Below are positions 7,387-45,727 of a stretch of DNA of 64,000 bases, piece after piece. Source of the DNA: Roseivirga echinicomitans. GTDB taxonomy: Bacteria; Bacteroidota; Bacteroidia; Cytophagales; Cyclobacteriaceae. Made by a program: the position numbers and the translations under genes. Positions within the stretch are counted from its first letter, which is position 1. Each line of letters starts with the position of its first letter. Location: the NCBI RefSeq assembly GCF_001592935.1, contig NZ_LRDB01000001.1:62001-126000 (forward strand), in the 5' to 3' direction. The notes beneath the pieces were generated by a model. The model had not been told where the DNA came from, made no database searches, and worked only from the letters and a program-made list of their open reading frames with translations.

Positions 7387-8403
7387 TTAATTCCCCGGAA
7401 ATGTAGAATACCCCTTCACTTTTTCATAAGTATTATGGTCCATTTCGGCTAGTTTTTCTATGTTATGGTTTTTGTAGAAGTGCTCTCTGATTTCCAGCAT
7501 TTCATCGTAAGGCCCACGGCCAGAAATTAGTTTGGCTACAATGGGGGTACACTCTAGTAAAATGAAAAGCAGCATAATAAAAATATTGGCGAAATGAATG
7601 GCAGTGTTTTCTTCACCCAAAATTCTTAAGGCTTGTAATTGAGCCGCCATGCCATTCCATGGGTTACGTTTTAGGTTGGTGATTTCAGTTTGCTTGGCTG
7701 CGAAAAGGGCATCCCATTCCTGCTGTTTATCTGCAATGAGCGGTAAGTTGGTGGTCTGTAATTCAGCTAACTCCTTTTGTGCCTGATCGGCATCTGCTTT
7801 TTTGATTTGGTAAATAGGACCAGCATTTCTTTTTCCAGAACCACCAGTGCCATCAGCTTCTTGCTGAGCTGCTTTGGCTAGCTCATCACGCTTTTCAGTT
7901 TTGGCGACTATTTCATTTTTTAGACTACCAATTTGCCCGTCTATTGTAGCTAGTTGGGTGGTGTACCTTCGCTCTAAATCAATAATCTCTTTCTGATAAA
8001 TTTCTTCTTCGAGCGTAATCAGTTTTCGATCTATTTCTTTCGAGAAAACTCGGAGTTCAAGAGGTTTAGAAATCACGATGGCCAGCATAATGGCCAATAA
8101 TATTCGGGGAGAAGCAGTGAAGAATTCTCGACCAAAGCCCTTCTTGTTTTTCCGCATAGTGGAAACAATAAAGCGATCGAGGTTGAAAATAATCGTGCCC
8201 CAGAGTAGGCCAAAGGCCAGTGCCCACCAAACATTTTCGAAAACGGTATGAAAGGCATAACCGCCCGAAAGCGCGGCTAAAACGCCAGTGAAGAAAACGG
8301 CAGCCCCTATTCCGGTATATTTTGAAGCATCGGTCGGGCATCGGTTCAATAATGAGCGGTTGACCCCCGCACAGAACCAGAAAAATTCTTTGAGTTGTTG
8401 CAT
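7387..8403 (-). CDS. DUF4407 domain membrane protein
   Basis: The protein is 338 residues from the ATG at 8403 (MQQLKEFFWFCAGVNRSLL, the usual DUF4407 opening). The frame is open further upstream but only adds an unlikely leader. Two transmembrane segments lie in the first 110 residues and another near the C-terminus (IHFANIFIMLLFILLECTPIVAK). A long charged coiled-coil stretch, roughly residues 140-250, sits between them. DUF4407 proteins have no established function. The gene ends next to repeat copy B and is followed upstream by a gene-poor interval, so it is probably transcribed alone. Confidence 0.85.
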   Translation of the reverse strand: MQQLKEFFWFCAGVNRSLLNRCPTDASKYTGIGAAVFFTGVLAALSGGYAFHTVFENVWWALAFGLLWGTIIFNLDRFIVSTMRKNKKGFGREFFTASPRILLAIMLAIVISKPLELRVFSKEIDRKLITLEEEIYQKEIIDLERRYTTQLATIDGQIGSLKNEIVAKTEKRDELAKAAQQEADGTGGSGKRNAGPIYQIKKADADQAQKELAELQTTNLPLIADKQQEWDALFAAKQTEITNLKRNPWNGMAAQLQALRILGEENTAIHFANIFIMLLFILLECTPIVAKLISGRGPYDEMLEIREHFYKNHNIEKLAEMDHNTYEKVKGYSTFPGN

Positions 8404-9118
8404 GTTGTTTGTGTTGGTGACCCTTGGGCAGTTTGACCGTCCATTTTTAGGTTGTTGGAAGAACAACGTAATGCCTATTGCATATGTTGTGTTAACCAGT
8501 ACCTTTTTATACAAGGTAGTGATCTCAAATGTAAATCACTAGAAAACAGGAGTGTGAACTGGCTTAATACTCACTATCGGTAACCACTGTCTCCCTCACC
8601 TGAAAAAGATAGATTGGAGTAGCGAATTTTTTTGGAGGGGGTTAGGGGGAGGAATTCGGCCATGAATGAAAAACCAGCTACTCTTAACCCTCTACACTAG
8701 TTCACAATGGGCTTTCTCCCTAATAGATAGAAACAATGCGCTACAAGCGCATAAAAAGATAGTACTCGCCACAGGCTTGGAAGCACTAGTTTCGGCAGTG
8801 GGAGGGCTAAGATGGTAGAGTTTAAAGGGCATTTAACCACAATTGCGCTGAGTGACTGAACTTATCTATGAGCAAATGACTACGTAAAGCAATCTCAATC
8901 TTCTTTTAGGCTACGGTCTGACCTTCGGTACCGACCGACTACACAGGGGGCTATTCTATGGTCGGCACCGAAGGTCAGACCATGTATATCAACCTAAAAA
9001 CTTACTCTACTATGGTTCTATGAGTCACTCGGCAAAGCCATGATATTATTGGAGGGGATGCTATAAATAGAAATGAAATTAGGCACTCATCGAAGATGGG
9101 TGCTAATTGAAGCTGTGG
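8404..9118. other. Gene-poor interval of 715 bases with two repeat-like elements
   Basis: No credible coding region was found on either strand. The interval contains a G-rich motif GGAGGGGGTTAGGGGGAGG (about 8634-8652), a type I know as a common short repeat in Bacteroidota genomes, and a strong 22-bp inverted repeat at 8915-8981. No tRNA or known riboswitch pattern was recognised. An unrecognised small RNA cannot be excluded. Confidence 0.5.
8915..8981. repeat. 22-bp inverted repeat with 23-nt loop
   Basis: GGTCTGACCTTCGGTACCGACC (8915-8936, shown here as 22 positions) is the reverse complement of 8960-8981 except for one position, which would be a G-U pair in RNA. It is by far the strongest hairpin in the interval and is not followed by a T-run, so it does not look like a terminator. 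Confidence 0.7.
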
Positions 9119-10372
9119 TTACCTTTGATCCTCACCATTGTATTCCTCCAAAAGCAATTTCATCATTTCTTGGGCGCTTACTTTGCCTTTCTCTTTGATC
9201 AAATCTCTAGGGGTGTCATCGCCAATTTCGTAAGTAATGCCTTCGGCTTTAAATTGGCTATAGAACCAGTTTTTAGAAACGGCAGATCCTACTGCTGCAG
9301 CACTAATTCTGCCTTGGTCTTGAGGCACACGTTCAAAGATGCTTTCAATCCATTCTTTAGCAAAGCCTTGAATTACGGACTCTACGGTATCGTCATATGT
9401 GTAATACACATCGGAAAAAGTAGAATGGAAATCGAGGCCGAGTTTTACGTCACCACCAGAGGTGTTTACTTTCTCAACAATATCGGAACAGACTTGTTCT
9501 ATCTCCGGCTGTCTGTAGAAAGCCCAATCTCGGTTTAAATCTACCCCGCCTGTATTATGTCTCCAATGACCTAAATCTACACCATCGGGGTTAAGCATTG
9601 GATAAACGATCAGTCGGTATTGGTCCAAGAATTTATTACTGAGTTCGCTGTCGTTCACGATTTCTTCAAGAAAAGCCATCATGGCCAAGTTACCAGTTAC
9701 CTCTGGTGGGTGTTGCCTGCTGAGCACCACCACAATGTCTTTGCCTTCTGTGCTACCATTGGTAATGTCCATATTGAGTAAGTCACGACCAAGTTTAGAT
9801 TTTCCAATGACCTCGTGTTGAGTTTTGGCAGAAGTAAAAGTCTGTGTCCATTCCAGCATATCGGTAGAATTTATGATTTCTTGAGCTGCAATGTACAGCG
9901 TGTCTGCACTGAGGTTCACGGTCATGGTGGCACTTTGACGATCTTCTGCCACGGTAAACTTGGTGCTGTCTAAAGCGGTCCAATTTTCTCTATCGGTACT
10001 GGTTTTTGGCCAGTAACGATGTCTGCCAAACCCGTATTTCAGTGTAATGTCAACGGTCTTTTCATCTTCGGAATAAATTCTAAAAGCATACCAAGCGCTG
10101 GGGTTTATTGGCGTGTTTTCTGGACTAATTTCAACTTGATAATGGTTTTTACCTACAGAACTGAAGTTGTTCATTCGGGCACCGTCAAATAGATTATCGG
10201 CTGTTACGCCTTCCCCCATAAGGGTGTAACTGCGCTTTTCCTGTGGGGCTATTTCTTTATCGTTGGTGTCGTTTTTTTGTGCGTAATCAAATTCAGTAAG
10301 TACATACTGAGGTTTGCTTTCACAAGAAATGAGGAATAAGGCCAGAACGGCTATCGAAAAAAATGCTTTCAT
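9119..10372 (-). CDS. M14-family zinc carboxypeptidase, lipoprotein
   Basis: This 417-residue exported peptidase starts with a lipoprotein signal (lipobox LISC, Cys17). Residues about 25-185 form an N-terminal beta-rich domain. The M14 catalytic domain follows, with zinc ligands His221 and Glu224 in SRQHPPEVTGN and His316 in LDFHSTF, the substrate-binding NPDGVDLGHWRHN and GVDLNRDW, and a probable catalytic Glu in ITYEIGDD near residue 385. It should remove C-terminal residues from peptides at the cell surface or in the periplasm. It lies on the same strand as, and 57 nt downstream of, a small exported protein of the DUF3299-like type. Confidence 0.9.
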   Translation of the reverse strand: MKAFFSIAVLALFLISCESKPQYVLTEFDYAQKNDTNDKEIAPQEKRSYTLMGEGVTADNLFDGARMNNFSSVGKNHYQVEISPENTPINPSAWYAFRIYSEDEKTVDITLKYGFGRHRYWPKTSTDRENWTALDSTKFTVAEDRQSATMTVNLSADTLYIAAQEIINSTDMLEWTQTFTSAKTQHEVIGKSKLGRDLLNMDITNGSTEGKDIVVVLSRQHPPEVTGNLAMMAFLEEIVNDSELSNKFLDQYRLIVYPMLNPDGVDLGHWRHNTGGVDLNRDWAFYRQPEIEQVCSDIVEKVNTSGGDVKLGLDFHSTFSDVYYTYDDTVESVIQGFAKEWIESIFERVPQDQGRISAAAVGSAVSKNWFYSQFKAEGITYEIGDDTPRDLIKEKGKVSAQEMMKLLLEEYNGEDQR

Positions 10373-10429: not shown

Positions 10430-10876
10430 CTAGTCTTTCGCTTCTTCAACCTCAACATCGTTGAGAATGTACATCAATCGCAAAGGATCGTCTGAATTTA
10501 GAGTAAGAACTCCCGTTACTTTAATTTTCTTTTCGGTGTACTTTACCTCCTTTTTACTGAAAACTTCGGCTACCGTCTCTGGGCCTGCGCCCCCACAAAA
10601 AAAGCAATTGGCAAATGGCAAAGAAGACAACACAAAGTAGTTCTCACCTCTCAGTTCGTCCAAAGGAATAATCCAGCCTTCTAAACTAATTTTCTTTCCA
10701 TTAAGTGCTTTCACCTGACTGGCGAAATCGTAATGTTCAACATCAATACTTAAGATTTCATCGAAACTCTTTTCAACGGTTACATTGGAAAGCGTCTTCC
10801 ACATGTTTTGCTCTTGAGCAATGCTTGCCGATGAAATGCTTAAAACGAATAGTATGAAAATCAGTCCTTTACGCAT
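10430..10876 (-). CDS. DUF3299-like exported protein with CFFCGxxGPETV motif (copy 1)
   Basis: The protein has 148 residues and a signal peptide ending at SIAQ. The core has MWKTLSNVTVEKSFD, then GKKISLEGWIIPLDE, then SSLPFANCFFCGGAGPETVAEV, then KVTGVLTLNSDDPLRLMYIL. The layout (small beta domain, segment like G-Y-I-I-P, then a Cys-rich turn) resembles DUF3299 proteins, which accompany certain ABC transporter/FtsX-type permease pairs; this link is from memory. It is a clear paralogue of the protein at 14139-14600, sharing the whole motif series. Its ATG overlaps the lepB stop by 1 nt, so it is made from the lepB mRNA. The paired cysteines might bind metal, which is inference. Confidence 0.7.
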   Translation of the reverse strand: MRKGLIFILFVLSISSASIAQEQNMWKTLSNVTVEKSFDEILSIDVEHYDFASQVKALNGKKISLEGWIIPLDELRGENYFVLSSLPFANCFFCGGAGPETVAEVFSKKEVKYTEKKIKVTGVLTLNSDDPLRLMYILNDVEVEEAKD

Positions 10877-12069
10877 TATTTTATCAAATCAAATACTCTA
10901 TTCCAACGAATGTTTTCGAAGAATCCAGCGTCTGGGTTGGTTCTATCCACAGACCAGAAAATGAACAAGGGCTTGCCTACAATATGATCTGCAGGTACAA
11001 AGCCCCATGAGCGTGAATCTTCAGAGTTGTGTCTGTTATCGCCCATCATATAGTAATACCCTTGCTTGAAGGTGTATTCAGTAATTTTCTGTCCCTCGAT
11101 AAAAACTTCACTTCCTCTAATTTCTACATCGTCATTCCCTTCGTAATGCTCAATGGGAGTACGGTACAAATCTACGTTCTCGGGGGTTAACTGTATTGTT
11201 TGCCCTTCTTCAGGCATGGTCAAAGGGCCAAAGAAGTCGATTGTCCAATCAAAATCCGTTACTGGGGTGTAGGCAGTGTATTCCGCCCCTAAGTATTGCT
11301 GCGCTTCAGGGAAAGCATTGTATCCTTCTCCTTTTCTGTAAACTACTTTTTCAACACTGGTAACGAAATTCAATTTAGCCAACTCGTCCGCTTGTTCTTG
11401 GCTGGTGTTCATATAGAAACCTAATTTCCCATTGTACTGATAATTGGGAGAGGCCGTAGTTGCATAAGTGTCCATTGGGTTATCATCAGTATAGTCCGAG
11501 ATGCCCAACTCCCGCATATATCTCGGGTGAATTCCATTTTGAGTTTCCACGAAATAACTGGTTTGCATGTGTGGAGGATTCTCCATTGGCTCACCATTGA
11601 TGTATACTTGTTGGTCTCTTACTTCTAAAACATCACCAGGAATGGCTACGCAACGCTTTACATAAAACGTTTTAATGTCAGTTGGGTATTTTAAATCTGG
11701 TGGGTAGTTAAATACTACAGGCTCACCTCTTCTTACTTTTCTAAAACCAGGAAGTCTGTATTGTGGAAGTTGGATGCCGTCCCAGTAGGATGGAATGCCT
11801 GATCCCCAAAAGTCTTGGTGGGCCAAAGGAAATTTTATAGGTGTTTTAGGCGTTCGAGCGCCATAGTGCAATTTGCTTACAAAAAGGTGGTCGCCAATGA
11901 GCATGGAGTTCTCCATGGATCCCGTAGGAATAGCGTAGGCTTCGATAAATAGACCTCGGATAATAGTGACCGCTATTAGCGCGAAAAGCACGTCATTAAA
12001 GAGTTCTCTAAAGAAACCCTTCTTCTGTTTTGGTGCCTTGTCTTTTTTCTTTTTAAAGAAATCCAACAT
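10876..12069 (-). CDS. lepB: Signal peptidase I, long Bacteroidota form
   Basis: LepB cuts signal peptides from exported proteins at the outer face of the inner membrane. One transmembrane segment lies near residues 24-45. The catalytic serine is in IPTGSMENSMLIGD, the catalytic lysine in YVKRCVAIPGDVLEV, and the last conserved block is MGDNRHNSEDSRSWGFVP. At about 397 residues from the ATG at 12069 it is much longer than E. coli-type cores because of an insertion between the lysine box and the C-terminal box, as is usual in this phylum. The ATG at 12069 is preferred over a TTG at 12081. It heads a two-gene unit with the DUF3299-like protein. Confidence 0.95.
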   Translation of the reverse strand: MLDFFKKKKDKAPKQKKGFFRELFNDVLFALIAVTIIRGLFIEAYAIPTGSMENSMLIGDHLFVSKLHYGARTPKTPIKFPLAHQDFWGSGIPSYWDGIQLPQYRLPGFRKVRRGEPVVFNYPPDLKYPTDIKTFYVKRCVAIPGDVLEVRDQQVYINGEPMENPPHMQTSYFVETQNGIHPRYMRELGISDYTDDNPMDTYATTASPNYQYNGKLGFYMNTSQEQADELAKLNFVTSVEKVVYRKGEGYNAFPEAQQYLGAEYTAYTPVTDFDWTIDFFGPLTMPEEGQTIQLTPENVDLYRTPIEHYEGNDDVEIRGSEVFIEGQKITEYTFKQGYYYMMGDNRHNSEDSRSWGFVPADHIVGKPLFIFWSVDRTNPDAGFFENIRWNRVFDLIK

Positions 12070-12257
12070 ATAAATCTTCAATTTTGAGTAAGCTGTAAAG
12101 GTATTATTTATTCTTAAAAATTCGAGACATTCAAAAGGGGAATGACTTTCATTAAAACGAAGCAGTGCTATAATGGTTATTCTGGCCAGAAATCCACCAT
12201 CGGTTACCGTTTTAAGTCACAAGTTGGTTACTTAGCATTTGAATTTTTGAAAGGGAT

Positions 12258-12893
12258 ATGATCACCATAGAAAACCTAAATTTCGGATATTCAGAAAAGC
12301 GAATTCTGTCCATTTCCCACATGGAAATCAAGGAAAAGCAGCATCTGATGATTCTCGGTAAGTCGGGAAGTGGAAAAACCACCTTGCTCCACATTCTTGG
12401 TGGACTCTTAAAACCTGCTCAGGGCAAGGTACTCATTGACGATACCGATTTATATCAGCTTTCGGGAAGTGCAATGGACAAATACAGAGGTCAGAACATT
12501 GGTCTCGTTTTTCAGAAGGCACATTTGATTTCGGCACTTACCGTAAAGGATAACCTTTTACTGGCGCAGTATTTTTCCGGAATCCCTCAAGATAAAGGAC
12601 GCATCAAGGAAGTGTTGGACACCTTGAATTTGGGTGAAAAACTTAATTCTAAAGTACGGCAATTGAGCCAAGGAGAGCAACAACGTGTAACCATTGCTAG
12701 GGCTTTGCTGAATAAACCACGGGTGCTTTTGGCCGATGAACCTACTGCAAGTTTAGATGATGACAATGCGAACAGTGTAATTCAGTTGCTGAAAGAGCAG
12801 GCTGAAAATAACAATGCCTCATTGATTATCGCCACACATGATCAGCGTGTAAAAGATGCTTTTGATTTACAACTAAACCTGAACGAGCAATGA
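12258..12893 (+). CDS. ABC transporter ATPase, MacB/LolD type
   Basis: This 211-residue nucleotide-binding subunit has Walker A GKSGSGKT (residues 34-41), Q-loop VFQKAHLI, signature LSQGEQQR (136-143) and Walker B VLLADEP (156-162), followed by the D-loop SLDDD and the switch His in IATHDQ. It belongs to the LolD/MacB group that partners FtsX-type permeases. Its stop overlaps the permease start (ATGA), so the two form one transporter. These ATPases usually drive mechanotransmission or extraction from the membrane rather than ordinary import. The DUF3299-like protein downstream links it to Zrg-like loci associated with zinc in Vibrio (recalled). Confidence 0.92.
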   Translation: MITIENLNFGYSEKRILSISHMEIKEKQHLMILGKSGSGKTTLLHILGGLLKPAQGKVLIDDTDLYQLSGSAMDKYRGQNIGLVFQKAHLISALTVKDNLLLAQYFSGIPQDKGRIKEVLDTLNLGEKLNSKVRQLSQGEQQRVTIARALLNKPRVLLADEPTASLDDDNANSVIQLLKEQAENNNASLIIATHDQRVKDAFDLQLNLNEQ

Positions 12894-14137
12894 ATCTGTT
12901 TTTACTTAGTTGGAAATACATAAAGGACAAACCCCTCAATACATTTCTAAATGTGTTGCTGATGGGCTTAGGGATTGCCATCATTTTGGTATTGTTGATT
13001 CTGAACTCTCAGTTGGAAGAAAATCTATCCAAGAACAAAAGAGGAATTGATTTGGTAGTAGGGGCGAAGGGCAGTCCCTTGCAGTTGATTTTGGCGAATG
13101 TATATCATATCGATTTCCCTACGGGCAATATAAAATTGGACGAAGCCAAAGCTTTAACTCGAAACCGTCAGGTGAAATCGGCCATTCCTTTGGCTTTGGG
13201 AGATAATTACCAAGGTTTTAGAATTGTGGGGACTAACCACGATTATACAAAGCTTTATGAGGCAACTTTATCGGAAGGTGCGCTTTGGAAATACAATTTA
13301 GAATGCACCATTGGGTCTAACGTAGCCATGCAATTGGGGCTGAAGGTGGGAGATGTGTTTTTTGGAGCTCATGGGCTAAGCGATACCGATCTTGACCACG
13401 ATGAGGCCAGCTATAAAGTAGTGGGAATTCTCGAACCTAGTAACACCGCCTTGGACAACCTAATTTTAACCAATATTGAAAGTATTTGGCAGGTGCATGA
13501 CCATAGTGCAGAAGAAGGAGAGGAGGCAGAACACAGCAACGAACCTGTTTTAGGTTCTGCCTATGAAACGGGTTTGCCGGAAGGTGGCCCCGATGCTGAA
13601 ATTACCTCGATGCTGATTCAGTTCAGGTCGGCCATGGGGGCGGTTACCATGCCCCGAATGATTAACAGCAACACCAATATGCAAGCGGCTTCACCAGCTT
13701 TCGAAACCCAAAGGTTGTTTTCGCTTATGGGGATTGGTGTAAACATGATCAAAAGCTTTGCGTATATTATCATCGTAATCGCGGGATTGAGTATTTTCAT
13801 TTCCCTTTATAATGCCCTGAAAGACAGGAAGTACGATTTGGCTATTATGCGATCTTTGGGCGCTTCAAAAAGCAAGTTGTTTGTACATGTTATTTTTGAA
13901 GGCATCATCATCACCACGATTGGTGGAGTTTTAGGCTTTATTCTCGGCCACGGTTTGGTAGAATTCTTAACTGGGCTTTATGAGAAATCCGATGCCATTG
14001 GTATTTCAGGAATGGTTTTGGTGAAGGGTGAATTCTACGTATTGTTAATTAGTGTTGGTGTAGGGGTTTTAGCTTCCATTTTACCAGCCTTTAGCGCGTA
14101 TAGAACAGATATTTCAAAAGTATTAGCACAAGAGTGA
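12890..14137 (+). CDS. FtsX-type ABC permease with large periplasmic domain
   Basis: This 415-residue membrane protein has one transmembrane helix at the N-terminus (LNVLLMGLGIAIILVLLIL). A periplasmic domain of about 250 residues follows, then three helices at the C-terminus with the FtsX-core signature KYDLAIMRSLGASKSKLF. The periplasmic part opens with GIDLVVGAKGSPLQLILANVYHIDFPTGN and contains a short His/Glu-rich loop, VHDHSAEEGEEAEHSNEP (about residues 202-219), that could bind divalent metal. It overlaps the ATPase gene by 4 nt and is followed 1 nt later by a DUF3299-like gene. The VGAKGSPLQL subfamily is, from memory, the one that pairs with DUF3299 proteins. The substrate is not established. 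Confidence 0.88.
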   Translation: MNLFLLSWKYIKDKPLNTFLNVLLMGLGIAIILVLLILNSQLEENLSKNKRGIDLVVGAKGSPLQLILANVYHIDFPTGNIKLDEAKALTRNRQVKSAIPLALGDNYQGFRIVGTNHDYTKLYEATLSEGALWKYNLECTIGSNVAMQLGLKVGDVFFGAHGLSDTDLDHDEASYKVVGILEPSNTALDNLILTNIESIWQVHDHSAEEGEEAEHSNEPVLGSAYETGLPEGGPDAEITSMLIQFRSAMGAVTMPRMINSNTNMQAASPAFETQRLFSLMGIGVNMIKSFAYIIIVIAGLSIFISLYNALKDRKYDLAIMRSLGASKSKLFVHVIFEGIIITTIGGVLGFILGHGLVEFLTGLYEKSDAIGISGMVLVKGEFYVLLISVGVGVLASILPAFSAYRTDISKVLAQE

Positions 14138-14138
14138 T

Positions 14139-14600
14139 ATGAAAAAATTATTGACAGTACTATTAACCGCAGTTGTGTCTGTTGGGCTTAACGCTCAGGA
14201 GGTAAAGATCTCAGGAGCAAAATTATGGAAAACCTTAACCGAGGTGACATATGAAATCTCTAAAGATGAATATGGTGATGTGTACCTCCCTGTATTCAGT
14301 AAAGAAATTCAGGCAGTAGAAGGCCAAGAAGTGGAGGTTGATGGCTACATTATTCCCTTCGAAGGGATGTTCAAGCCTACTCAATTAATTATTTCATCGC
14401 TACCCATTAGTGAATGCTTTTTTTGTGGCTCTGGCGGGCCAGAAACGGTAATGGAAGTGACCATGAAAGAACAGATCAAATACACCACTAAACGGATAAG
14501 AATTAGGGGCAAACTGGCATTGAACAAGAAGGATCCAGACAAACTGATGTACATTTTAACCGATGGGGTTTTTGCTGGCCTAGCTTACGATAGTTACTAG
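14139..14600 (+). CDS. DUF3299-like exported protein with CFFCGxxGPETV motif (copy 2)
   Basis: The protein has 153 residues and a signal peptide ending at GLNAQ. It shares with copy 1 (10430-10876) the blocks LWKTLTEVTYE, VDGYIIPFEG, SSLPISECFFCGSGGPETVMEV, IRGKLALN and DPDKLMYIL. Here it directly follows the permease gene (1-nt gap), so it is the third gene of an ATPase-permease-DUF3299-like operon. A periplasmic partner or metal-handling accessory of the transporter is the best reading. The two cysteines in CFFC are conserved between copies, which supports a structural or metal-binding role. Function is unproven. Confidence 0.72.
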   Translation: MKKLLTVLLTAVVSVGLNAQEVKISGAKLWKTLTEVTYEISKDEYGDVYLPVFSKEIQAVEGQEVEVDGYIIPFEGMFKPTQLIISSLPISECFFCGSGGPETVMEVTMKEQIKYTTKRIRIRGKLALNKKDPDKLMYILTDGVFAGLAYDSY

Positions 14601-14651: not shown

Positions 14652-14670
14652 CGCCATATCAATGACTGTT

Positions 14671-15075
14671 ATGAAAAGAGCTCTTTCGTTACTCGTAATT
14701 ATATTATTTGTTTTTGCTTGCGCGAAAAAAGAAGACAAATTCGAAACCCTAAAGACCGAAGTTTTTGCTATTCATGATGAGGTGATGCCAAAACTGGGCG
14801 AACTGATGTCGTTGAAAAAGAAGGTGCTTGACAAAGCAAATGCCAGTGAAAATCCAGATGAGCTTAGAGATATCGCTTTGAGCTTAGAGAAAGCGCAAGA
14901 AGGCATGATGAAGTGGATGAACGACTGGGGTGCCAACTCTACCCCTCACGTAAACAATGAATCTACAGAAGAGGAGAAAATGGCCTTTATCAATGCTGAG
15001 ATGGAAAGAGTAAAAAAGGTCAAAGAAGAAATCAATAGTAGTATTGCAGCAGCCAAAGAAGCCCTTAAAAACTAA
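14671..15075 (+). CDS. Small helical lipoprotein
   Basis: About 134 residues from the ATG at 14671 (MKRALSLLV); an ATG at 14662 is in frame but very near the predicted transcription start. The signal ends in a lipobox FACAKK. The mature part is almost entirely charged amphipathic helix, with KTEVFAIHDEVMPKLGELMSLKKK, then a spacer with WMNDWGAN, then a second coiled-coil-like helix. Proteins of this type are widespread in Bacteroidota and lack a known function. It lies just after the ABC/DUF3299-like operon but has its own promoter. It ends 3 nt before the convergent cytochrome c gene. Confidence 0.75.
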   Translation: MKRALSLLVIILFVFACAKKEDKFETLKTEVFAIHDEVMPKLGELMSLKKKVLDKANASENPDELRDIALSLEKAQEGMMKWMNDWGANSTPHVNNESTEEEKMAFINAEMERVKKVKEEINSSIAAAKEALKN

Positions 15076-15078: not shown

Positions 15079-15534
15079 TCACTGTCCTTCTGAAAGACTA
15101 CTGATCACCTCTTCAGTAGTAAAGCTTCCAACCTCATTCCCCCAAGTATTCCCTATATAGGTTAGAATTTCGGCTACTTCAATGTCGGTTAATTTAGGAT
15201 TGGCTGGCATCGGCTGATTAAACTCGATCCCATTTACTATAACAGGGCCATGCAATCCATACTTTATTATGCGAGGCAAATCTGCTCTATGATTTTTTAG
15301 GTAATCAGATTTAGCCAAAGGCGGAATTAGTCTACCAAGCCCTTCACCGTTTTCCATGTGGCAGTTTTGGCATATCGTTTTGTAGAGCCTTCGTCCATTG
15401 GAGTAGTATTGCGTCTCCTTCTGATCAAAACCGCTCAGTGTACTACTTGGTATTTCGTTATCCGCTACTTTATTACCTGAGCAGCTCGTAGCCAAACCTA
15501 TAATGAAAGTGAATATGAATAGCTGTTTTTTCAT
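15079..15534 (-). CDS. Class I cytochrome c lipoprotein
   Basis: This 151-residue exported protein has a lipobox-like ATSC near residue 18, a heme-attachment motif CQNCH, a GEGLG turn, and the distal heme-ligand region with FNQPMPANPKLTDIEV. It is a small mono-heme c-type cytochrome anchored at the periplasmic face. Its ATG overlaps the SCO stop by 4 nt. Together with SCO (copper) and HemJ (heme) it forms an operon around respiratory metal centres. It may pass electrons to a terminal oxidase, but the oxidase is not in this window. Confidence 0.88.
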   Translation of the reverse strand: MKKQLFIFTFIIGLATSCSGNKVADNEIPSSTLSGFDQKETQYYSNGRRLYKTICQNCHMENGEGLGRLIPPLAKSDYLKNHRADLPRIIKYGLHGPVIVNGIEFNQPMPANPKLTDIEVAEILTYIGNTWGNEVGSFTTEEVISSLSEGQ

Positions 15535-16175
15535 TGGTCTTCGTATTCCTTTAACAACCTGTCGATGTCATTCATAAGAACATCCACCGCTGAGGCCACA
15601 GTGCCATCATAAAAACCTCTGACTCGTCTTTCTTTGTCAATCAAAATAAATGCGCCACTGTGGATGAACCCACCGTCTGCCGAAGCATCTTCGCCTACTT
15701 GAACCATATACCCAGCCGCAGTGCCCAGTTCATAGATTTCGGATTTGTTACCAGTTACAAAGTGCCAGACTTTATTGTCCATAATGCCAATGCGTTCTGA
15801 ATAGTCTTTTAAATAAGCAACGGTATCATGGTCTGGGTCGATCGTGTGTGAAATAATGCCGAACTCAGGGTTCGACTCAAATCGATCATAAACACGAAGC
15901 ATTTGCTGTTTCATTATAGGACAAATCGTTGGGCATGTACCGAAGAAGAAGTCGGCCACATATATTTTATTATCGAAGGTTTTAGGTGTTACCTCAACGC
16001 TATCTTGATCAACAAAACTGTAATCAGGAATGGTGTGGTAAACCGTGTCGATTGTACCGTTGGTTTCTACATAATCGGTTCTTCCCAAAATAGGGAGCCT
16101 AGCTTTTTGTTGAGAGTTACATGCCGAAAACCCGAACGCGAATACTAAAGTGATAATTGCTAATTGCTTTTTCAT
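15531..16175 (-). CDS. SCO1/SenC family copper chaperone, lipoprotein
   Basis: The protein has 214 residues, a lipobox FSAC, and a thioredoxin-like domain in which the copper site is complete: CPTIC in FFFGTCPTICPIMKQ, plus the distant His in FIHSGAFILIDKERRV. SCO proteins load copper into the CuA site of cytochrome oxidase or act as thiol-disulfide reductants. The gene lies 5 nt after hemJ and overlaps the cytochrome c gene by 4 nt, so all three are translated from one mRNA. No sign of truncation. Confidence 0.92.
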   Translation of the reverse strand: MKKQLAIITLVFAFGFSACNSQQKARLPILGRTDYVETNGTIDTVYHTIPDYSFVDQDSVEVTPKTFDNKIYVADFFFGTCPTICPIMKQQMLRVYDRFESNPEFGIISHTIDPDHDTVAYLKDYSERIGIMDNKVWHFVTGNKSEIYELGTAAGYMVQVGEDASADGGFIHSGAFILIDKERRVRGFYDGTVASAVDVLMNDIDRLLKEYEDQ

Positions 16176-16180
16176 AGCTA

Positions 16181-16726
16181 CTACTTTCCTTCTTTTTGAT
16201 TCCTTATCCTTTTGTAAATTCTTATGCCCAACATTAAAAGTACCGCGACCAGTATAAAACCAATCGTTCCTTTAATCCAGTTGAGTTCGTTCTTTAATAC
16301 GATTAAAAAGACAACTGAGATTAAGATTATCGTTGCGATCTCATTGAAAATTCGCAGTTGGGTAGAAGTGTATTTTATAATGTCGTTTTGAAGCTGTTTG
16401 TAGAGCTTATGACAGGCGAAATGATAGATGTATAAAATTAGTACAAAGCTGAGTTTGATCTGCATAAATGGCAGCGAGAGCATGGCAGGATTACTGATGA
16501 TCATCCAAGTTCCAAAAAATAGGGTGAGGACTGCCGAAGGCCAAGTAATAATGTACCACAATCGGTTGGACATTAACTTCAATTGAGTACCAAGGATGGA
16601 TCTGTCTGGCTCTGGTTTCTCAGAAGCTTCAACATGATATATAAAGAGCCTTACAATATAAAACAGCCCTGCAAACCAGGTGACTATAAAAATAATGTGT
16701 AACGCTTTAATATAAGGATCAGCCAT
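16181..16726 (-). CDS. hemJ: HemJ-type protoporphyrinogen IX oxidase
   Basis: This 181-residue inner-membrane protein has four to five hydrophobic helices. The family start is intact: KALHIIFIVTWFAGLFYIVRLFIYH with the conserved His near residue 10, and MQIKLSFVLILYIYHF with the conserved Lys. HemJ oxidises protoporphyrinogen IX to protoporphyrin IX, the penultimate step of heme synthesis. It is first in an operon with SCO and cytochrome c, so heme supply and cytochrome assembly are linked. A 14-bp palindrome sits just upstream of its -7 box. The family was formerly annotated UPF0093/CopD-like. Confidence 0.88.
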   Translation of the reverse strand: MADPYIKALHIIFIVTWFAGLFYIVRLFIYHVEASEKPEPDRSILGTQLKLMSNRLWYIITWPSAVLTLFFGTWMIISNPAMLSLPFMQIKLSFVLILYIYHFACHKLYKQLQNDIIKYTSTQLRIFNEIATIILISVVFLIVLKNELNWIKGTIGFILVAVLLMLGIRIYKRIRNQKEGK

Positions 16727-33778: not shown

Positions 33779-35290
33779 TCAAAGGGCAAAGTTAATACTA
33801 TTCAAAACGTTCAACAACCAATCTGATTTAAAGAATAACAATAACAGGGGTGCGACTAAAATAGTGCCCAAGATTTTGTCGGTTAAATTACCTACTACTG
33901 AGCTAACAGCTTCCTCACTACCCTTAAAAAACATGTAATAAGGTATTTTTAGATAAAAGAAGAGCGAAACAACGGTATTGAACAAACCGAAAATAAAAGC
34001 CCAAATTAAAATGCTAGAACCTTCAATTTGCCACGTTTCCCAAAGGCTTGAGAAAATATAAAGTTTGGCATTAAAACCAGCCATAGGCGGAAGCCCCGTC
34101 AACGAAATCATGACAATAAGAAGCAACACTCCTAAATAGGGCACTTTCGACCCCATTCCTTTAAAAGCATCAAAAGAAGTTTTGCCTTCATTATCTTCAA
34201 ATAACTGAACCAAGAAAAAAGCCCCAAAATTCATCAGCAAATAAATACTTCCGTAAAATAATGCGGAAGTCTCCCCACTTTCAGAAAAAGCTAAAACCCC
34301 TACCAAAAGGAAACCCGCATGGGCAATGGAAGAGTAGGCCAACATTCGTTTGACATCCTTTTGCCATAAGGCTGAAAAATTACCCACCGTCATGCTGGCA
34401 ATGGCAATAATACCTAACCACAATTGCCAATCAACTAATGCTAAATCAAGGCTTGCTACAAAGCGGAATAAAATGGCCAAGGCCGCCAATTTTGGTAAAG
34501 AAGAAAAAATAGCGACAATAGGTGTTGGGCTGGCCTCGTATACATCGGGTGACCAAATATGAAAAGGAAAAGCGCCTAATTTGAAAACGAAACCTCCAAT
34601 AGTCATTATTAAGGCCAAGGAAAGCGGAAATACCGCCACTTGAGAAATCCCTTCTGCAAAGGCAGTTGAAGTAAAATCTAATGTCCCCGTAAAGCCATAC
34701 AACCAGCTCATTCCGTAAATCATTACAGCTGAAGCCACTGCTCCAAACAGCAAATATTTCATGGCTGCTTCAGAATTTCTTTTGCTTTTGAAAAGCCCCG
34801 TGAGCACATAAGAGCAAATAGAAACCAGTTCGATAGCCACATACACCATTAAAAAATTAATGACCATTGTCATCAAGAAAGTGCCCAAAACCAAACCGAA
34901 GAACAACAATAGCGTTTCGCTTGATTTAAAGAACTTCTCTTTCTGCTTAGAGCGAAGCATCATCACTAAACCGATCAATCCACCAATACTGAAAAATGCT
35001 TTTAGGTAAATGGCTACTCCATCCAAACGGATCATTCCGTCCATAAGGATTCTATCCTCTTCAATATTTCCCCAACCAGCGATAAGTAAAGCCAAAGTGA
35101 AGGTCATGCCTGCAAAAGCAATGGCTGCCAAACCAACTGATTTATTTTCTTTGAAAATTAGATCGTAAATCAACAAAAGCACTGCTGTGATGACCAAAGT
35201 AATCTCTGGCGCTAACCAAGCAATATCAGCTGAAATACCTTGAATTTGCTCCTTCAGCCCGAGTGTCATATTGGATTGCAGCAATATCAT
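33779..35290 (-). CDS. nuoN: NADH-quinone oxidoreductase subunit N
   Basis: NuoN is one of three antiporter-like proton-pumping subunits of complex I. The 503 residues form about 14 helices. The helix-5 Glu region is in LMVYVAIELVSICSYVLTG, and the helix-7/8 region in LGAFPFHIWSPDVYEASPTP with the conserved Lys/His pattern. The gene is last in nuoHIJKLMN, with its start overlapping the nuoM stop by 4 nt (ATGA). Length and hydrophobicity match the family. Confidence 0.95.
   Translation of the reverse strand: MILLQSNMTLGLKEQIQGISADIAWLAPEITLVITAVLLLIYDLIFKENKSVGLAAIAFAGMTFTLALLIAGWGNIEEDRILMDGMIRLDGVAIYLKAFFSIGGLIGLVMMLRSKQKEKFFKSSETLLLFFGLVLGTFLMTMVINFLMVYVAIELVSICSYVLTGLFKSKRNSEAAMKYLLFGAVASAVMIYGMSWLYGFTGTLDFTSTAFAEGISQVAVFPLSLALIMTIGGFVFKLGAFPFHIWSPDVYEASPTPIVAIFSSLPKLAALAILFRFVASLDLALVDWQLWLGIIAIASMTVGNFSALWQKDVKRMLAYSSIAHAGFLLVGVLAFSESGETSALFYGSIYLLMNFGAFFLVQLFEDNEGKTSFDAFKGMGSKVPYLGVLLLIVMISLTGLPPMAGFNAKLYIFSSLWETWQIEGSSILIWAFIFGLFNTVVSLFFYLKIPYYMFFKGSEEAVSSVVGNLTDKILGTILVAPLLLLFFKSDWLLNVLNSINFAL
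33787..33817 (-). promoter_or_regulatory. Promoter of the PurF-like gene within nuoN
   Basis: On the minus strand TTG (33815-33817), a 20-nt spacer and TAACTTTG (33787-33794) lie 17 nt upstream of the ATG at 33769, inside the last codons of nuoN. Confidence 0.5.
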
Positions 35291-37002
35291 TCAACCGAAA
35301 GGATTAAAAGTTGCGTGAAACCTTCCACTGAATTATTAATGAGGTTGAGCAGGGTTGCTGGGTAAATACCGAACCAAATGATCAGGATTACCAACGGAAC
35401 CAGCATTACATATTCTCTGGCGTTCAAATCCACCAAAGTCTCTCTCCAAGCCTTGTCTTTCACCCAAAACTTGCCAAAAAACATACGCTGAAGTGTCCAC
35501 AAATAATAGCCTGCGCCTAATACCAAGCCTAAAGTGGCCACCACTGGCATCCAATATGGAATGGCGCCAATAACAGTTGAAGATTTGAAAGCTCCGATAA
35601 ACACCATCAGTTCGGCAATGAAGCCCGAGAAGCCTGGCAAGCCTAATGAGGCAAAGAAAGCGATGGTAATGAGAATGGTGAATTTCGGCATTTTAGAAGC
35701 CAAACCTCCATAGTTTTCGATTCCACGGTCATGGGTTCTATCGTACAACACGCCTACCAGAAGGAAGAGCATACTCGATATTAATCCGTGGCTGAACATT
35801 TGATAAATTGCTCCAGTGACACCCTCTACCGTCATAGCGGCCAAACCTAGTAGTACGAAGCCCATGTGAGAAACGGAACTGTAAGCGATCAGTCGCTTTA
35901 AATCTTTTTGTGCCAAGGCGTTCATGGCGCCATATAATATGGAGAATAAGCCAAAGAATCCGATCAGCCAAGTATAGTGAAATGCACTATCGGGGAAGAA
36001 ACTAAAGGCCGTTCGAATGATTCCGTAACCGCCAATTTTCAATAGAATTCCTGCCAGCACTACCGAAACTGCGGTTGGTGCTTCTACGTGTGCATCGGGT
36101 AGCCAAGTATGGAATGGGAAAACCGGAAGCTTAATCGCAAAACCGATCAACAAGGCTAAAAAAGCCATCCATCGTGCAGATTGGCCGAAGATTTCACCAT
36201 AACTGTTCTTACCTAAAAATGAATCAGGCAGGTAGTTAGCGTCATCCGCCATTGAAATCATGTTGAATGACTTCACAATATTTTCACTTTCCATTTGCCC
36301 CGATTGCACCGCAAATTGGATACTGCTGATCATGTCTGGAGAAGCCTCAGAAACATTTTCGATCACTCCCGCTTCCATACCGGTTTTTACAGGATCGTAT
36401 ACTGAGTTGTAAAGCCCAATCATGACGATCAGGATTAAGATAGAACCGACTAGTGTATAAAGAAAGAATTTAATGGCAGCGTATTCTCTTCTCGGTCCAC
36501 CCCAAATTCCGATAAGGAAGTACATGGGTAAAAGCATAAACTCGAAAAAGAGGTAGAAAAGGAAGAAATCTAGCGCTACAAAACAACCTAAAACCGAAGT
36601 AGAAAGCAGCAAGTACAACCCAAAATAACCCTTCTGTTTTTGCTTAATTCCGAAGGAAGAAATGGCGCCAATAAAGAGCACAATGGCTGCCAAAAGCAAT
36701 AGTGACAGATTCAGTCCATCAACCCCTACAAAATAATCAACTGAAAATTTACCGAGGGAACCCAGTTGGACTGAAAACCATTCGGCTTTATCCACCAACT
36801 GAAGCTGATCTTCAGAATTGGTAAGCCCTTCCACCGAGGCATCGAAACTAGTAACTGCCAATACGGATAGTACAAGCGTAACGCCCAATGCCACAAGGGC
36901 AACCCATTTGAAGCTACTGGTTTTCGACTTCGGTAAAAACAAGACCACAAGCGCGCCAAGCAGCGGGGTAAATATGATATAGGTTAAAAGATTTTCTATC
37001 AT
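35287..37002 (-). CDS. nuoM: NADH-quinone oxidoreductase subunit M
   Basis: NuoM is an antiporter-like, proton-pumping membrane subunit of complex I. At 571 residues it is longer than the common ~500 because of a loop insertion of about 70 residues (around residues 200-270, with YDPVKTGMEAGVIENV and DSFLGKNSYGEIFGQSARW). Core motifs include YLFFEFMLLPMYFLIGIWGG with the key Glu, KLPVFPFHTWLPDAHVEAPT, and LKRLIAYSSVSHMGFVLLG. It starts 4 nt after nuoL. The extended loop may be lineage-specific. Confidence 0.95.
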   Translation of the reverse strand: MIENLLTYIIFTPLLGALVVLFLPKSKTSSFKWVALVALGVTLVLSVLAVTSFDASVEGLTNSEDQLQLVDKAEWFSVQLGSLGKFSVDYFVGVDGLNLSLLLLAAIVLFIGAISSFGIKQKQKGYFGLYLLLSTSVLGCFVALDFFLFYLFFEFMLLPMYFLIGIWGGPRREYAAIKFFLYTLVGSILILIVMIGLYNSVYDPVKTGMEAGVIENVSEASPDMISSIQFAVQSGQMESENIVKSFNMISMADDANYLPDSFLGKNSYGEIFGQSARWMAFLALLIGFAIKLPVFPFHTWLPDAHVEAPTAVSVVLAGILLKIGGYGIIRTAFSFFPDSAFHYTWLIGFFGLFSILYGAMNALAQKDLKRLIAYSSVSHMGFVLLGLAAMTVEGVTGAIYQMFSHGLISSMLFLLVGVLYDRTHDRGIENYGGLASKMPKFTILITIAFFASLGLPGFSGFIAELMVFIGAFKSSTVIGAIPYWMPVVATLGLVLGAGYYLWTLQRMFFGKFWVKDKAWRETLVDLNAREYVMLVPLVILIIWFGIYPATLLNLINNSVEGFTQLLILSVE

Positions 37003-37006
37003 TTCA

Positions 37007-39145
37007 CTAAAATAGAAGCCAGATTAACATGAGTATTAAAAAGGCTAAAGCAGCCATAATATATGCTTGTACATTGCCCGACTGCACCGAACGTGTCAGT
37101 TGCCCAACGCGTCCAGTTGTATAAGTCGTCAAATGTACGAATCCATCAATGATATTCCTGTCGAACCAAGCAATGAGGTGCGCAAACACCACCTGAAACT
37201 TGGCGATAAAGTTGATGAAACCGTCCAAAATCACGCGGTCGAACCAAGCAATACGCTTCGCACTCCACATTATAAATTTCAATATAACTTTTTCGTAAAG
37301 CGCATTCTGATACCAGTGGTAAAATGAAACCTGACCGACTAACCCAATTGGTTCGCGCTTTTCTGCAAATGAAGCTGAGTATTTCGCTCCTGGTTTGAAT
37401 AAGAAATAGGCAATAACTAGCCCCGACAGAGCCAAACCAATTGAAATGGTTGCTACACGAAAATGCAAATTCTCGAACCATTCATGAGGCAAATCCATAA
37501 GGTTGAATGCTGCGTAACTTTCCGGTACCAAGAAAATTGGATCTTGAATTAATTGATAGAACCATGTGTCTTCGGCCTTCATGGTGAAGCCAAAAATCAC
37601 GCTCAGAGAACCAATCGCCAATAACACCATCGGCAATTTCAAGAAACCGTTTCCTTCCTTTAAAGGCTTTAGTGTAGCGTTCGCTGGGATAAGTTTTGGC
37701 AACCTAAAATCACCCGTAAACACCAAGAAGATCATTCTGAAAGTGTAGAATGCAGTAATCAACACTGTAGCAAAAGCAAGCACTTCAATAAAATAGAAGC
37801 CTCCACCCTTTTCATCAACCCACACCGCAGTGTTTAGTAAAATGGCATCTTTTGAAAGGAAGCCTGAAAAACCTGGTAAACCCGCCAAGGCCAATGCGCA
37901 AATCAAAAAGCAAATGAAGGTCACTGGCATGTACTTCCGAAGCCCACCCATCACACGCATGTCTTGCGGATCGAAATTGATATCCTTGCCCTCAAGCTGA
38001 TGCAATTGATGAATGATGGTTCCAGCACTTAAGAACAATCCAGCCTTAAACATGGCGTGCGTTACCAGATGAAAAAGCCCTGCTGTGTAAGCACCCACTC
38101 CCATGGCCAAAACCATATAACCCAATTGTGAAATGGTGCTATAAGCCAATACTTTTTTAATGTCGAATTGTGAAAAGGCAGCAACGGCCGCCATAAAGGC
38201 AGTAATGGCACCTACAACGGCTACAACTTCCAACGCCTGAGCATCTAAAATCACAAAGATCCGTGCGATCATAAACACACCAGCCGCCACCATGGTAGCC
38301 GCGTGAATCAATGCCGAAACTGGCGTTGGCCCTTCCATGGCATCGGGAAGCCAGACTTGTAATGGGAATTGAGCCGATTTACCTACAGCCCCACAAAACA
38401 GCGCAATACCAGCCGCACTCAGCCATCGACCATCGAGGCTATTTCTGACCAATTCGCCATTTTTAAAGTATTCGGCTACCCAATTTCCATCTTCGATACT
38501 GCTGAGCACCGTCAATGATTTTATGCCTTCTAAATCGAAAGTTTGGAACTGAGAATAGAGAATCATCAAACCAGTGATGAAACCTAAATCACCAATGCGG
38601 TTCATGATAAAGGCTTTGTTGGCAGCCAGAGAAGCGGATTTCTTTTCGAACCAAAAACCAATAAGCAGGAAAGAAGATAAACCCACCAGTTCCCAAAAAA
38701 TGAAAATGAAGAGCAAATCGTAAAACAGAATAATGCCCAGCATGGAGAAGGTAAATAGTCCAAGCAAACCAAAATAGCGGGACTTGTTCTCATCATGGCG
38801 CATATATTCCATAGAAAAGAAATGCACCAACACCGAAATAAAATTAACCACCACCAGCATAATCAGCGCCAGTTGGTCAATCAGAAAAGAATAAGTGAGT
38901 TGCGTATCGCCAATGCTAAACCAATTTCCACGAATTGACACTCCCGTAGTGTCCCAATATTGCGAAGCCAGGTAAATGGAAATCAAAAGGTTAACTCCCA
39001 ATAACAGTGTGGCCCAAGCAGGCGCTATTTTCTTTATAAAAGTAGTAGTGAAAAACGACAGTAACGGAATGGCCATCAAAGCGATTATCCAATAAATCAA
39101 AGGATTAAATTCCGTGGTCGATATGATGTCGTTCAAATCAATCAT
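37007..39145 (-). CDS. nuoL: NADH-quinone oxidoreductase subunit L
   Basis: NuoL is the distal proton-pumping subunit of complex I, with the long lateral helix that braces the membrane arm. The 712 residues contain FIFWELVGLSSFLLIGFW with the key Glu, FPLQVWLPDAMEGPTPVSALIHAATMV (in two overlapping blocks) and KKVLAYSTISQLGYMVLA. The C-terminus has two similar blocks, RIAWFDRVILDGFINFIA (631-648) and LIAWFDRNIIDGFVHLTT (657-674), followed by the last helix. The gene starts 4 nt before the nuoK stop. Confidence 0.96.
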   Translation of the reverse strand: MIDLNDIISTTEFNPLIYWIIALMAIPLLSFFTTTFIKKIAPAWATLLLGVNLLISIYLASQYWDTTGVSIRGNWFSIGDTQLTYSFLIDQLALIMLVVVNFISVLVHFFSMEYMRHDENKSRYFGLLGLFTFSMLGIILFYDLLFIFIFWELVGLSSFLLIGFWFEKKSASLAANKAFIMNRIGDLGFITGLMILYSQFQTFDLEGIKSLTVLSSIEDGNWVAEYFKNGELVRNSLDGRWLSAAGIALFCGAVGKSAQFPLQVWLPDAMEGPTPVSALIHAATMVAAGVFMIARIFVILDAQALEVVAVVGAITAFMAAVAAFSQFDIKKVLAYSTISQLGYMVLAMGVGAYTAGLFHLVTHAMFKAGLFLSAGTIIHQLHQLEGKDINFDPQDMRVMGGLRKYMPVTFICFLICALALAGLPGFSGFLSKDAILLNTAVWVDEKGGGFYFIEVLAFATVLITAFYTFRMIFLVFTGDFRLPKLIPANATLKPLKEGNGFLKLPMVLLAIGSLSVIFGFTMKAEDTWFYQLIQDPIFLVPESYAAFNLMDLPHEWFENLHFRVATISIGLALSGLVIAYFLFKPGAKYSASFAEKREPIGLVGQVSFYHWYQNALYEKVILKFIMWSAKRIAWFDRVILDGFINFIAKFQVVFAHLIAWFDRNIIDGFVHLTTYTTGRVGQLTRSVQSGNVQAYIMAALAFLILMLIWLLF

Positions 39146-39444
39146 CCTTTCAGTTCATTGATTTTATCCAGATTGGCCGTTTGGAAATGTTGATACACTT
39201 TAATGACGATTGCCAGTGCAACAGCAGCTTCGGCAGCGGCTACGGTAATGACGAAAAGCGCAAAAACCTGGCCTTGCAACTCTACCGCATCAAAACGGCT
39301 AAAAGCGACTAAGTTTAAGTTGGTAGCATTCAACATGAGTTCAATGCCAATCAAAACGGCAATGGCATTTTTGCGAGTAACCACAACGGCCAAACCGATA
39401 CAGAATAAGGCGGCACCCAGCAGCAAAACGGTATTAAGCGGCAT
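39142..39444 (-). CDS. nuoK: NADH-quinone oxidoreductase subunit K
   Basis: NuoK is a three-helix complex I subunit with two membrane-buried Glu residues near the quinone/proton channel. The ATG at 39444 (MPLNTVLLLGAALFCIG) gives 100 residues, the normal length; an extended frame to 39489 is unlikely. The family blocks VLIGIELMLNATNLNLVAFS and VAAAEAAVALAIVI hold the two Glu. It overlaps nuoJ by 11 nt and nuoL by 4 nt. Confidence 0.96.
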   Translation of the reverse strand: MPLNTVLLLGAALFCIGLAVVVTRKNAIAVLIGIELMLNATNLNLVAFSRFDAVELQGQVFALFVITVAAAEAAVALAIVIKVYQHFQTANLDKINELKG

Positions 39445-39961: not shown

Positions 39962-39964
39962 CCG

Positions 39965-42090: not shown

Positions 42091-42198
42091 GATCCGATTT
42101 TCCCTTGTTCACTGCAAAGAAAGTATATAATTCGTTAAGTCGTAAAGTAAAGTCTACAAGAGGTGTAGGATAAAGTTATAAAAGAGGAAGACCGCATT

Positions 42199-44347: not shown

Positions 44348-44549
44348 AGGGATTGTAATGCTATGCATGAAACCAAGCTTTGACAATAGAGCCATGACTA
44401 TGACTGACCTAAAAGTGTCATTTCAATTTAAATATAAACCTAGAAAATAATTATAATCTTAATTATACATTAAATTATATTAATGTAGAGATTAAAATAA
44501 TGGAAGAGGGATAAGAAGTATTTTTGAAAAAAATATGAAGTAGACCTAC

Positions 44550-45359: not shown

Positions 45360-45571
45360 GTATAACTGCTAAGGTATTTGTTTCGAATAAAAACTTAACG
45401 CAGCCCCGCCAAATTATTATTGACTTTCTGAAGGAAGGGAATCCGCGCATTTATTTTTTTACCTGCCGTTAAATAATGTGAAAGGCGAGTAGACTGCCGT
45501 TTGACCTTACTATCTTCGTGGATGCTAAATCACGGAAAAAACGCGAGTCCAAAGCAGAAAAGTAGAGGCAT

Positions 45572-45602: not shown

Positions 45603-45607
45603 AGAAG

Positions 45608-45680: not shown

Positions 45681-45727
45681 AAAATGTTTTCTTGTTGAAT
45701 TAAGGGCGTTTTCCTTAATTGCGACTG

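Follow-up and report, generated by a model that had tools for sequence, protein, structure and literature searches.

Twin exported CFFC proteins, relatives of DUF3299, beside signal peptidase I and a MacB/FtsX-type ABC transporter in Roseivirga

The closest described relatives of the locus reported here are the zrgABCDE operon of Vibrio and PA4063-PA4066 of Pseudomonas aeruginosa, which combine an ATP-binding cassette (ABC) ATPase and a MacB-like permease with an exported OB-fold protein of the DUF3299 type (PF11736; ZrgE and PA4066). The MacB and LolCDE mechanotransmission systems share the FtsX/MacB core by profile, and a further group of operons, with the order alkaline phosphatase-CPFC-ATPase-permease, is present in Deinococcus radiodurans, Allomeiothermus, Paracoccus, Roseomonas, Rhizobium, and Ensifer, where the CPFC gene is annotated as hypothetical. 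Here, a 64,000-nt stretch of the Roseivirga echinicomitans genome (contig NZ_LRDB01000001.1, positions 62,001 to 126,000; hereafter the window) was analyzed, in which two exported proteins carrying a CFFC motif, P1 and P2, are encoded beside the signal peptidase I gene lepB and an ATPase-permease pair, respectively. The Bacteroidota branch is undescribed in the portions available of PMC9817125, PMC11481552, PMC8561739, and PMC9820375, and a literature search on FtsX-like permeases with alkaline phosphatase and zinc found nothing.

Both P1 and P2 have an OB fold and a CxxC motif and rank as relatives, not members, of DUF3299; the ATPase-permease pair represents the core that Zrg-type and alkaline-phosphatase operons have in common. 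A metal role for the system is likely. We propose, tentatively and with slightly less than even confidence, that the MacB/FtsX-type ABC machine encoded at the locus works with a dedicated shuttle that carries metal in the periplasm and serves exported metalloproteins. The acquisition of metal by zinc enzymes outside the cytoplasm of Gram-negative bacteria is a largely open question, and the CFFC family is a concrete candidate for this supply, for which alkaline phosphatase activity in D. radiodurans R1 and exopeptidase activity in Roseivirga would be convenient reporters. Moreover, Zrg operons, phosphatase operons, and Bacteroidota CFFC genes, which are annotated apart, are joined by one permease with invariant histidines. 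The features of the locus are the following:

9119 to 10372, minus strand: M14 zinc carboxypeptidase lipoprotein (PF00246, 7.2e-22; HPPE at residue 221, DFHS at 314)
10430 to 10876, minus strand: P1, exported CFFC protein of 148 amino acids (aa), directly 3' of lepB
10876 to 12081, minus strand: lepB, signal peptidase I (PF10502, 1.5e-39; TIGR02227, 2e-36)
12082 to 12257, no strand: promoter region from which lepB-P1 and the ABC operon diverge, without a Zur-like box
12258 to 12893, plus strand: ABC ATPase of the LolD/MacB type (PF00005, 2.4e-36)
12890 to 14137, plus strand: FtsX/MacB-type permease (FtsX and MacB_PCD domains; H161, H170, and H203; variable His loop after H203)
14139 to 14600, plus strand: P2, exported CFFC protein of 153 aa (OB-type fold; nearest solved fold PA4066, 4hsp)
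14662 to 15075, plus strand: small lipoprotein of 137 aa, a predicted three-helix bundle
15079 to 16726, minus strand: neighbors conserved in synteny, namely cytochrome c (PF00034, 3.2e-9), SCO1/SenC (PF02630, 8.1e-24), and a UPF0093 membrane protein (PF03653, 1.1e-39)

As claimed in a preliminary description of this DNA, P1 overlaps lepB (by 1 nt, at a TAATG stop/start junction), P2 follows the ATPase-permease pair at a spacing of 1 nt, and a zinc carboxypeptidase lipoprotein, an M14 enzyme by PF00246, is located next door, its gene lying 57 nt beyond the end of P1 in the same orientation. The ATPase and permease genes themselves overlap by 4 nt. P1 and P2 were also correctly described as paralogous exported proteins sharing motifs, since they align with 42% identity and 62% positives over 143 aa and both contain CFFCG..GPETV; each has an apparent signal peptide. 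An N-terminal Gln is expected on both proteins after cleavage and was kept in at least 90% of 57 aligned rows. P2 is 95% identical to the copy in a Roseivirga ehrenbergii record.

The family placement of P1 and P2 is firm. Membership of DUF3299 at the curated level, to be checked by profile according to the preliminary description, was not borne out, as P1 scored 15.9 bits against a PF11736 cut-off of 22 and P2 was without a match. The same profile gave matches at E<=1 in 11 of 22 relatives (best 3e-5), and a search of the R. echinicomitans genome with it found nothing, being equally silent in its 14 controls. When profiles were compared, the CFFC profile matched six annotated DUF3299 proteins (E 2.8e-5, probability 74), with C93 near the Cys of GACIH. 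The motif GACIHxPPPPxNQ, seen in these six members, is absent from P1 and P2, which have CFFCGxGGPETV at that place. A stronger match than this one (probability 98.8, E 1e-16) was obtained with the CPFC profile of the alkaline-phosphatase-linked proteins; their operons thus share with the present locus a CxxC protein of the same family and a homologous permease, and differ in the alkaline phosphatase linkage, the CPFC motif, and the lack of GPETV.

The structure prediction that had also been suggested pointed to DUF3299 for P2 as a single chain. Its AlphaFold2 model (57 sequences; predicted local distance difference test score, pLDDT, 88.8; predicted template modeling score, pTM, 0.78) had two matches in the Protein Data Bank (PDB) at E<=0.001, and the first of all was the DUF3299 structure 4hsp of PA4066 (E 6.9e-5, probability 1.00, TM 0.47-0.49). 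A PDB sequence search with P2 gave nothing significant, and 4hsp ranked third in the P2 profile search at E 0.32, which is not evidence by itself. P1 and P2 therefore share with DUF3299 the top PDB fold, the profile-profile match, and the alignment of the first Cys, and differ from it in scoring under the curated cut-off, in a CxxC in place of CxH, and in the GPETV motif.

The permease (P0003) was then compared with its relatives. A tblastn search found 85 plasmid records at E<=1e-15 and 115 at 1e-10, and ten neighborhoods from this search, together with one found with P2, were read. Annotated DUF3299 genes were present in four of them. The order was Fur-ZrgA(DUF2796)-ATPase-permease-DUF3299 in Phaeobacter, whereas Sulfitobacter and a Rhodobacteraceae plasmid carry DUF2796-ATPase-permease with a pair of DUF3299 genes behind it. 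In Catenovulum, MerC and the ATPase-permease pair are accompanied by a DUF3299 gene in the opposite orientation. An alignment of 15 permeases from three phyla (14 of them at 21-48% identity to P0003) contained 18 invariant columns, three of which were the histidines H161, H170, and H203 (hypergeometric P ~0.005, calculated post hoc). These residues lie in the predicted periplasmic part, and in 75 aligned Bacteroidota rows they were kept at 100, 94, and 100%, respectively. Between conserved segments, H161 and H170 border a short stretch and are possibly near each other in the folded protein. The His/Glu-rich loop of the preliminary description is real and spans residues 198-237, with 3 His in the window and from 1 to 36 in the 75 rows (median three). 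The permease and ATPase were far under the Lol equivalog cut-offs (lolCE, 49 vs. 362 bits; LolD, 177 vs. 308), and the MacB equivalog, a fused ATPase-permease chain, did not apply either, the genes being separate and the permease reaching 25 of 966 bits. The locus hence differs from MacB and LolCDE in its separate ATPase and permease, its invariant metal-type histidines, and its low Lol scores.

A total of 39 genomes (the R. echinicomitans genome, 18 of the same genus, and 20 others) were searched for CFFC genes. A match was found in 27 of them, comprising R. echinicomitans, whose two CFFC genes are both at this locus, 18/18 of the same genus, and 8/20 of the others. The arrangement of P1-lepB diverging from ATPase-permease-P2-lipoprotein was kept in 18/18 Roseivirga genomes (contig ends fell within lepB in G010 and cut P1 in G017), so the twin layout is more than chance, and the loss of linkage in close relatives contemplated in the preliminary description was not seen within the genus. 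In the eight other CFFC-bearing genomes, lepB was on a separate contig (seven) or more than 1 Mb away (one, G033). Linkage to lepB is thus real but, in the genomes searched, specific to the genus. Duplication of the accessory gene, also taken to be new, is not, given that annotations of Sulfitobacter and the Rhodobacteraceae plasmid already show DUF3299 genes in tandem and that CFFC pairs are present in Saprospiraceae. With P1 as the query in 13 non-Roseivirga genomes, the best match was the known P2-type copy in 11; the exceptions were Nafulsella (G046), which returned its P1 copy, and G047, which returned another copy.

Genes for exported zinc enzymes were observed beside several CFFC and CPFC genes. 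Of the 17 same-genus genomes whose flank was readable, 15 have a codirectional M28 exopeptidase gene 3' of P1 (identity checked with PF04389 in three), and the remaining two, the closest relatives, have M14 after P1 as in the window. In Nafulsella, which belongs to another family, a spacing of 5 nt separates P1 from M28, and lepB is not part of the arrangement. No close copy of M28 was found elsewhere in the R. echinicomitans genome (best 33%). Nine Lewinella-type loci carry a glutaminyl cyclase gene after the CFFC gene, 44-408 nt from the tblastn match (in L140, whose frame missed the motif filter, the CFFC position was taken from an earlier match). These genes are 58-79% identical to the L135 glutaminyl cyclase, or are L135 itself, and the L135 copy matches solved glutaminyl cyclases at E 6e-91. 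According to the available portions of the sources, the enzyme of P. gingivalis has a catalytic zinc (PMC7948796) and glutaminyl cyclase is believed to modify proteins after their cleavage by signal peptidase I (PMC7948796, PMC5837995). The nearest homolog in R. echinicomitans (48%) is unlinked to the locus, at C1:790002, more than 700 kb away. Furthermore, alkaline phosphatase (PF00245) directly precedes the CPFC gene in 7/7 such loci read, from Deinococcota and Alphaproteobacteria, and an ATPase-permease pair follows it in 6/7, D. aetherius (L167) being without one in the stretch read. The adjacency of CFFC/CPFC genes to exported zinc enzymes is new here.

The pairing of P2 with a lipoprotein bearing an invariant His/Met/Trp set is also new here. 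Each of the 65 relatives of this lipoprotein in these loci was encoded 3' of a CFFC gene and in its orientation, at distances from -14 to 3827 nt (within 2500 nt in 63 cases), with another gene in between in many Cyclobacteriaceae loci (e.g., L080). C20, H38, D39, M42, M82, W85, and M86 were invariant in 66 rows with a mean pair identity of 39%; in a 47-row set with two added Nafulsella rows, C20, D39, and W85 remained so, and H38, M42, M82, and M86 were kept in at least 90%. The lipoprotein was modeled as a three-helix bundle (pLDDT 90.8) in which, by residue count, H38/M42 would stand opposite M82/W85/M86 across the first hairpin, and the model had no PDB match at E<=0.001. Homology to the HEGHDHGH lipoprotein of zinc clusters was considered and not shown, because the profile match (probability 94) begins on the signal peptide. 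The lipoprotein, cytochrome c, SCO1, and UPF0093 genes all follow P2 in 39 of the 44 loci L076-L119, which are from other genera; the five exceptions are short.

The comparison with the Zrg loci made in the preliminary description was partly supported, being right in kind and wrong in regulation. The order of ATPase, MacB-like permease, and DUF3299-type gene was found at this locus, and the PA4066 fold and the homologous permease speak for kinship; a Zur-like box and ZrgA were not found. ZrgA (PF10986) was detected in 0/38 genomes, R. echinicomitans included, by a search that was silent in its 14 controls too, while the model does detect L166 (1.7e-48). In addition to lacking a detectable ZrgA/PA4063 and a Zur-like box, the locus differs from zrgABCDE and PA4063-PA4066 in its second, lepB-linked CFFC gene, its His/Met/Trp lipoprotein, and the presence of CFFCG..GPETV where those have GACIHxPPPPxNQ. 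Likewise, metal handling drew support from the invariant permease histidines and the zinc exopeptidases beside P1, and the idea of a zinc-regulated locus did not.

A candidate Zur box, the palindrome TGCAACAnTGTTGCA, to which Zur would bind, was recognized at loci with extra CFFC copies (L052-L063, 11 from the genus and one from a sister genus). Their company varies and includes MerC, a COG0523-type GTPase, a His-rich lipoprotein, Fur-family regulators, and ABC-2 genes (Fur, MerC, and cobW were each checked with Pfam in one example). At <=1 mismatch, all 12 loci had at least one site, with 31 sites in 149 kb and zero in five shuffles; not all of them are directly before the CFFC gene, as in L052 and the second copy in L062. 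Among the 13 genomes searched with P1, seven had a further CFFC copy at 32-36%, with the box at <=1 mismatch in four, at two mismatches in two, and absent in one. In R. echinicomitans, TGCAACAnTGTTGCA occurred at 15 places at <=2 mismatches vs. 5 for the backward control. The context was examined at two of the 15: the best match (C12:345185; one mismatch, a second site adjacent) precedes a lipoprotein of the zinc-cluster type, and one at two mismatches (C3:33766) precedes a ZIP transporter. Zur control of the twin locus itself was rejected by the motif scan, in which window matches were at chance level. In the 44 P2 loci of other genera, the sole site precedes a MerC gene that is inserted in L109. 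Since a box lies upstream of the ATPase in only 2 of 77 ABC loci (L071, one mismatch; L066, two mismatches), zinc regulation seems confined to one branch, which suggests a trait of some branches and not of the whole family.

As a candidate Zur operator of Cytophagales, TGCAACAnTGTTGCA occurs near genes for MerC, COG0523 GTPase, ZIP, TonB/lipoprotein, and CFFC proteins (L052-L063, L192-L197, L066, and L071), and no obvious description of it was found in the literature on Zur motifs, judged by the titles listed. A lipoprotein of the SDDPEPVNEEELITT...DEHQVFF type (L163:6531-7106), with similar genes in L052, L061, L066, and L151, was also observed. Such genes adjoin TonB receptors or zinc clusters, and are near a Zur-like box in L163, L052, and L151; the two copies tested had no Pfam match, and the protein is a possible surface zinc partner. 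In L066, a GTP cyclohydrolase I gene (8049-8798) diverges from the boxed ABC-CFFC operon, with the box in between.

In the proposed shuttle, a metal, most likely zinc, would be caught at the permease histidines and the His-rich loop, and an ATP-driven movement of the periplasmic domain (mechanotransmission, cf. MacB and LolCDE) would hand it to, or strip it from, the Cys pair of CFFC. The onward recipient of the metal would be the lipoprotein for P2 and, for P1, the exopeptidases encoded alongside it. The lepB linkage would provide steady co-expression with secretion; an action of P1 on signal peptidase is not implied. A broader form of the proposal, which we consider rather doubtful, is that CFFC, CPFC, and DUF3299 proteins with the MacB-type core make up a general machine loading zinc (or copper) into exported enzymes, with alkaline phosphatase, M28/M14 exopeptidases, and glutaminyl cyclase as clients, and that in Roseivirga one shuttle came under the control of the signal peptidase promoter, coupling the supply of metal to secretion.

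Several observations weigh against a zinc shuttle of this kind. The zinc-enzyme adjacency was noticed after the fact, and, as adjacency within one genus counts as one event, it amounts to an estimated four or so independent events. No M28 or cyclase match was found in the 44 P2 loci L076-L119, and the P2 neighbors (lipoprotein, cytochrome c, and SCO1) would suggest copper as much as zinc. At <=1 mismatch, TGCAACAnTGTTGCA was found in 0/20 loci (L032-L051, 234 kb), these being 19 twin loci of 18 genomes and L050 from a sister genus. In the published work, as far as the portions available go, the P. aeruginosa data favor pyochelin-cobalt export (PMC11481552), and single knockouts of zrgE or zrgD in V. 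cholerae are told to have had no effect (PMC9820375).

Two other metal-based explanations were weighed, both of which we regard as unlikely. The ABC core could import zinc into the cytoplasm as a second such system, the role proposed for V. cholerae ZrgABCDE, the CFFC protein being an accessory. The Zur-like boxes at the paralogous operons L066 and L071 would fit an importer, but the twin loci are without such a box, ZrgA was missing from 38/38 genomes, and no ion channel is known in a MacB-type permease. The published evidence available in part is divided: the zrg operon is required for growth at low zinc in a znuA background and ZrgA resembles a binding protein (PMC9820375, PMC9817125), whereas deletion of PA4065 caused no further fall in the zinc content of P. 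aeruginosa (PMC11481552). Alternatively, P2 and the lipoprotein could carry Cu(I) towards SCO1 and cytochrome oxidase, delivering copper to respiratory enzymes. The best argument for copper is the resemblance of lipoprotein H38, M42, M82, W85, and M86 to His36, Met47, Met49, and Trp44 of CusF, as given in the accessible part of PMC9302797; by residue count on the helices, the ligand-type residues would be placed in one layer. The cytochrome c, SCO1, and UPF0093 genes with the lipoprotein after P2 in 39/44 loci, and a PCu(A)C gene annotated near the Ensifer set, agree with it. However, the invariant permease ligands are His, the relatives beside zinc enzymes and Zur-like boxes favor zinc, and no lipoprotein match was found in the Lewinella-type loci (the plasmid loci were not searched for it).

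Two further explanations were considered. An exporter of the MacB or Lol type, having P2 for its periplasmic adaptor and a small molecule, metallophore, or lipoprotein for its substrate, agrees with the MacB_PCD and FtsX domains of the permease and with the proposal, in the part of PMC11481552 available, that PA4064-4065 export pyochelin-cobalt. We hold it to be quite improbable, since scores were far below the lolCE and LolD cut-offs, the invariant histidines would be left unexplained, and no metallophore genes were recognized by eye among the open reading frames of the window, no further search being made. Finally, P1 and P2 might be periplasmic redox partners acting through CxxC in a thiol-disulfide device, the metal being incidental. 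The CxxC is present in 147/147 rows, though these were chosen by that motif; the P2 model matches OB-type and not thioredoxin-type folds, AhpC-TSA matches were only at E 0.06-0.16, and DUF3299 relatives carry Cys-x-His at the CxxC place. We regard this as the most improbable of the explanations.

The ancestry of the CFFC copies was approached with a quick tree of 149 rows, with an arbitrary root and deepest forks without support. Three groups were supported by the Shimodaira-Hasegawa-like approximate likelihood ratio test (SH-aLRT): the P2 copies (97; 78 rows), the boxed copies (96; 15 rows), and the Roseivirga P1 copies (97; 21 rows). A recent tandem duplication as the origin of the twins was rejected, as the P2 and boxed groups are supported without the Roseivirga P1 copies. 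ABC-linked members occur with each group (L070 beside P1, at a support of 82 and not starred; P2; and L066/L071 among the boxed copies), so the ABC link is probably old. P1 is probably a copy that lost the ABC link and then came to lepB, a history that rests on the weak deep forks. The tree program warned of long branches coming together, namely L066 with L071 and some of the Saprospiraceae rows. Some records are probably mislabeled bins: L123 is titled as a Rickettsiales metagenome-assembled genome and has a Cytophagales-type locus, and L078 and L091 are titled Spirosoma fluviale and cluster with Algoriphagus.

Additionally, complex I genes were named by eye elsewhere in the window (33779-49239, minus strand), where they are interrupted by other genes, including a murI-like one at 42199-46489. 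In this region, no nuoE, F, or G was recognized by eye between nuoD and nuoH. The NuoI-like ferredoxin (39965-41014, minus strand) has a Pro/Lys-rich tail of ~200 aa beyond its Fer4 domains.

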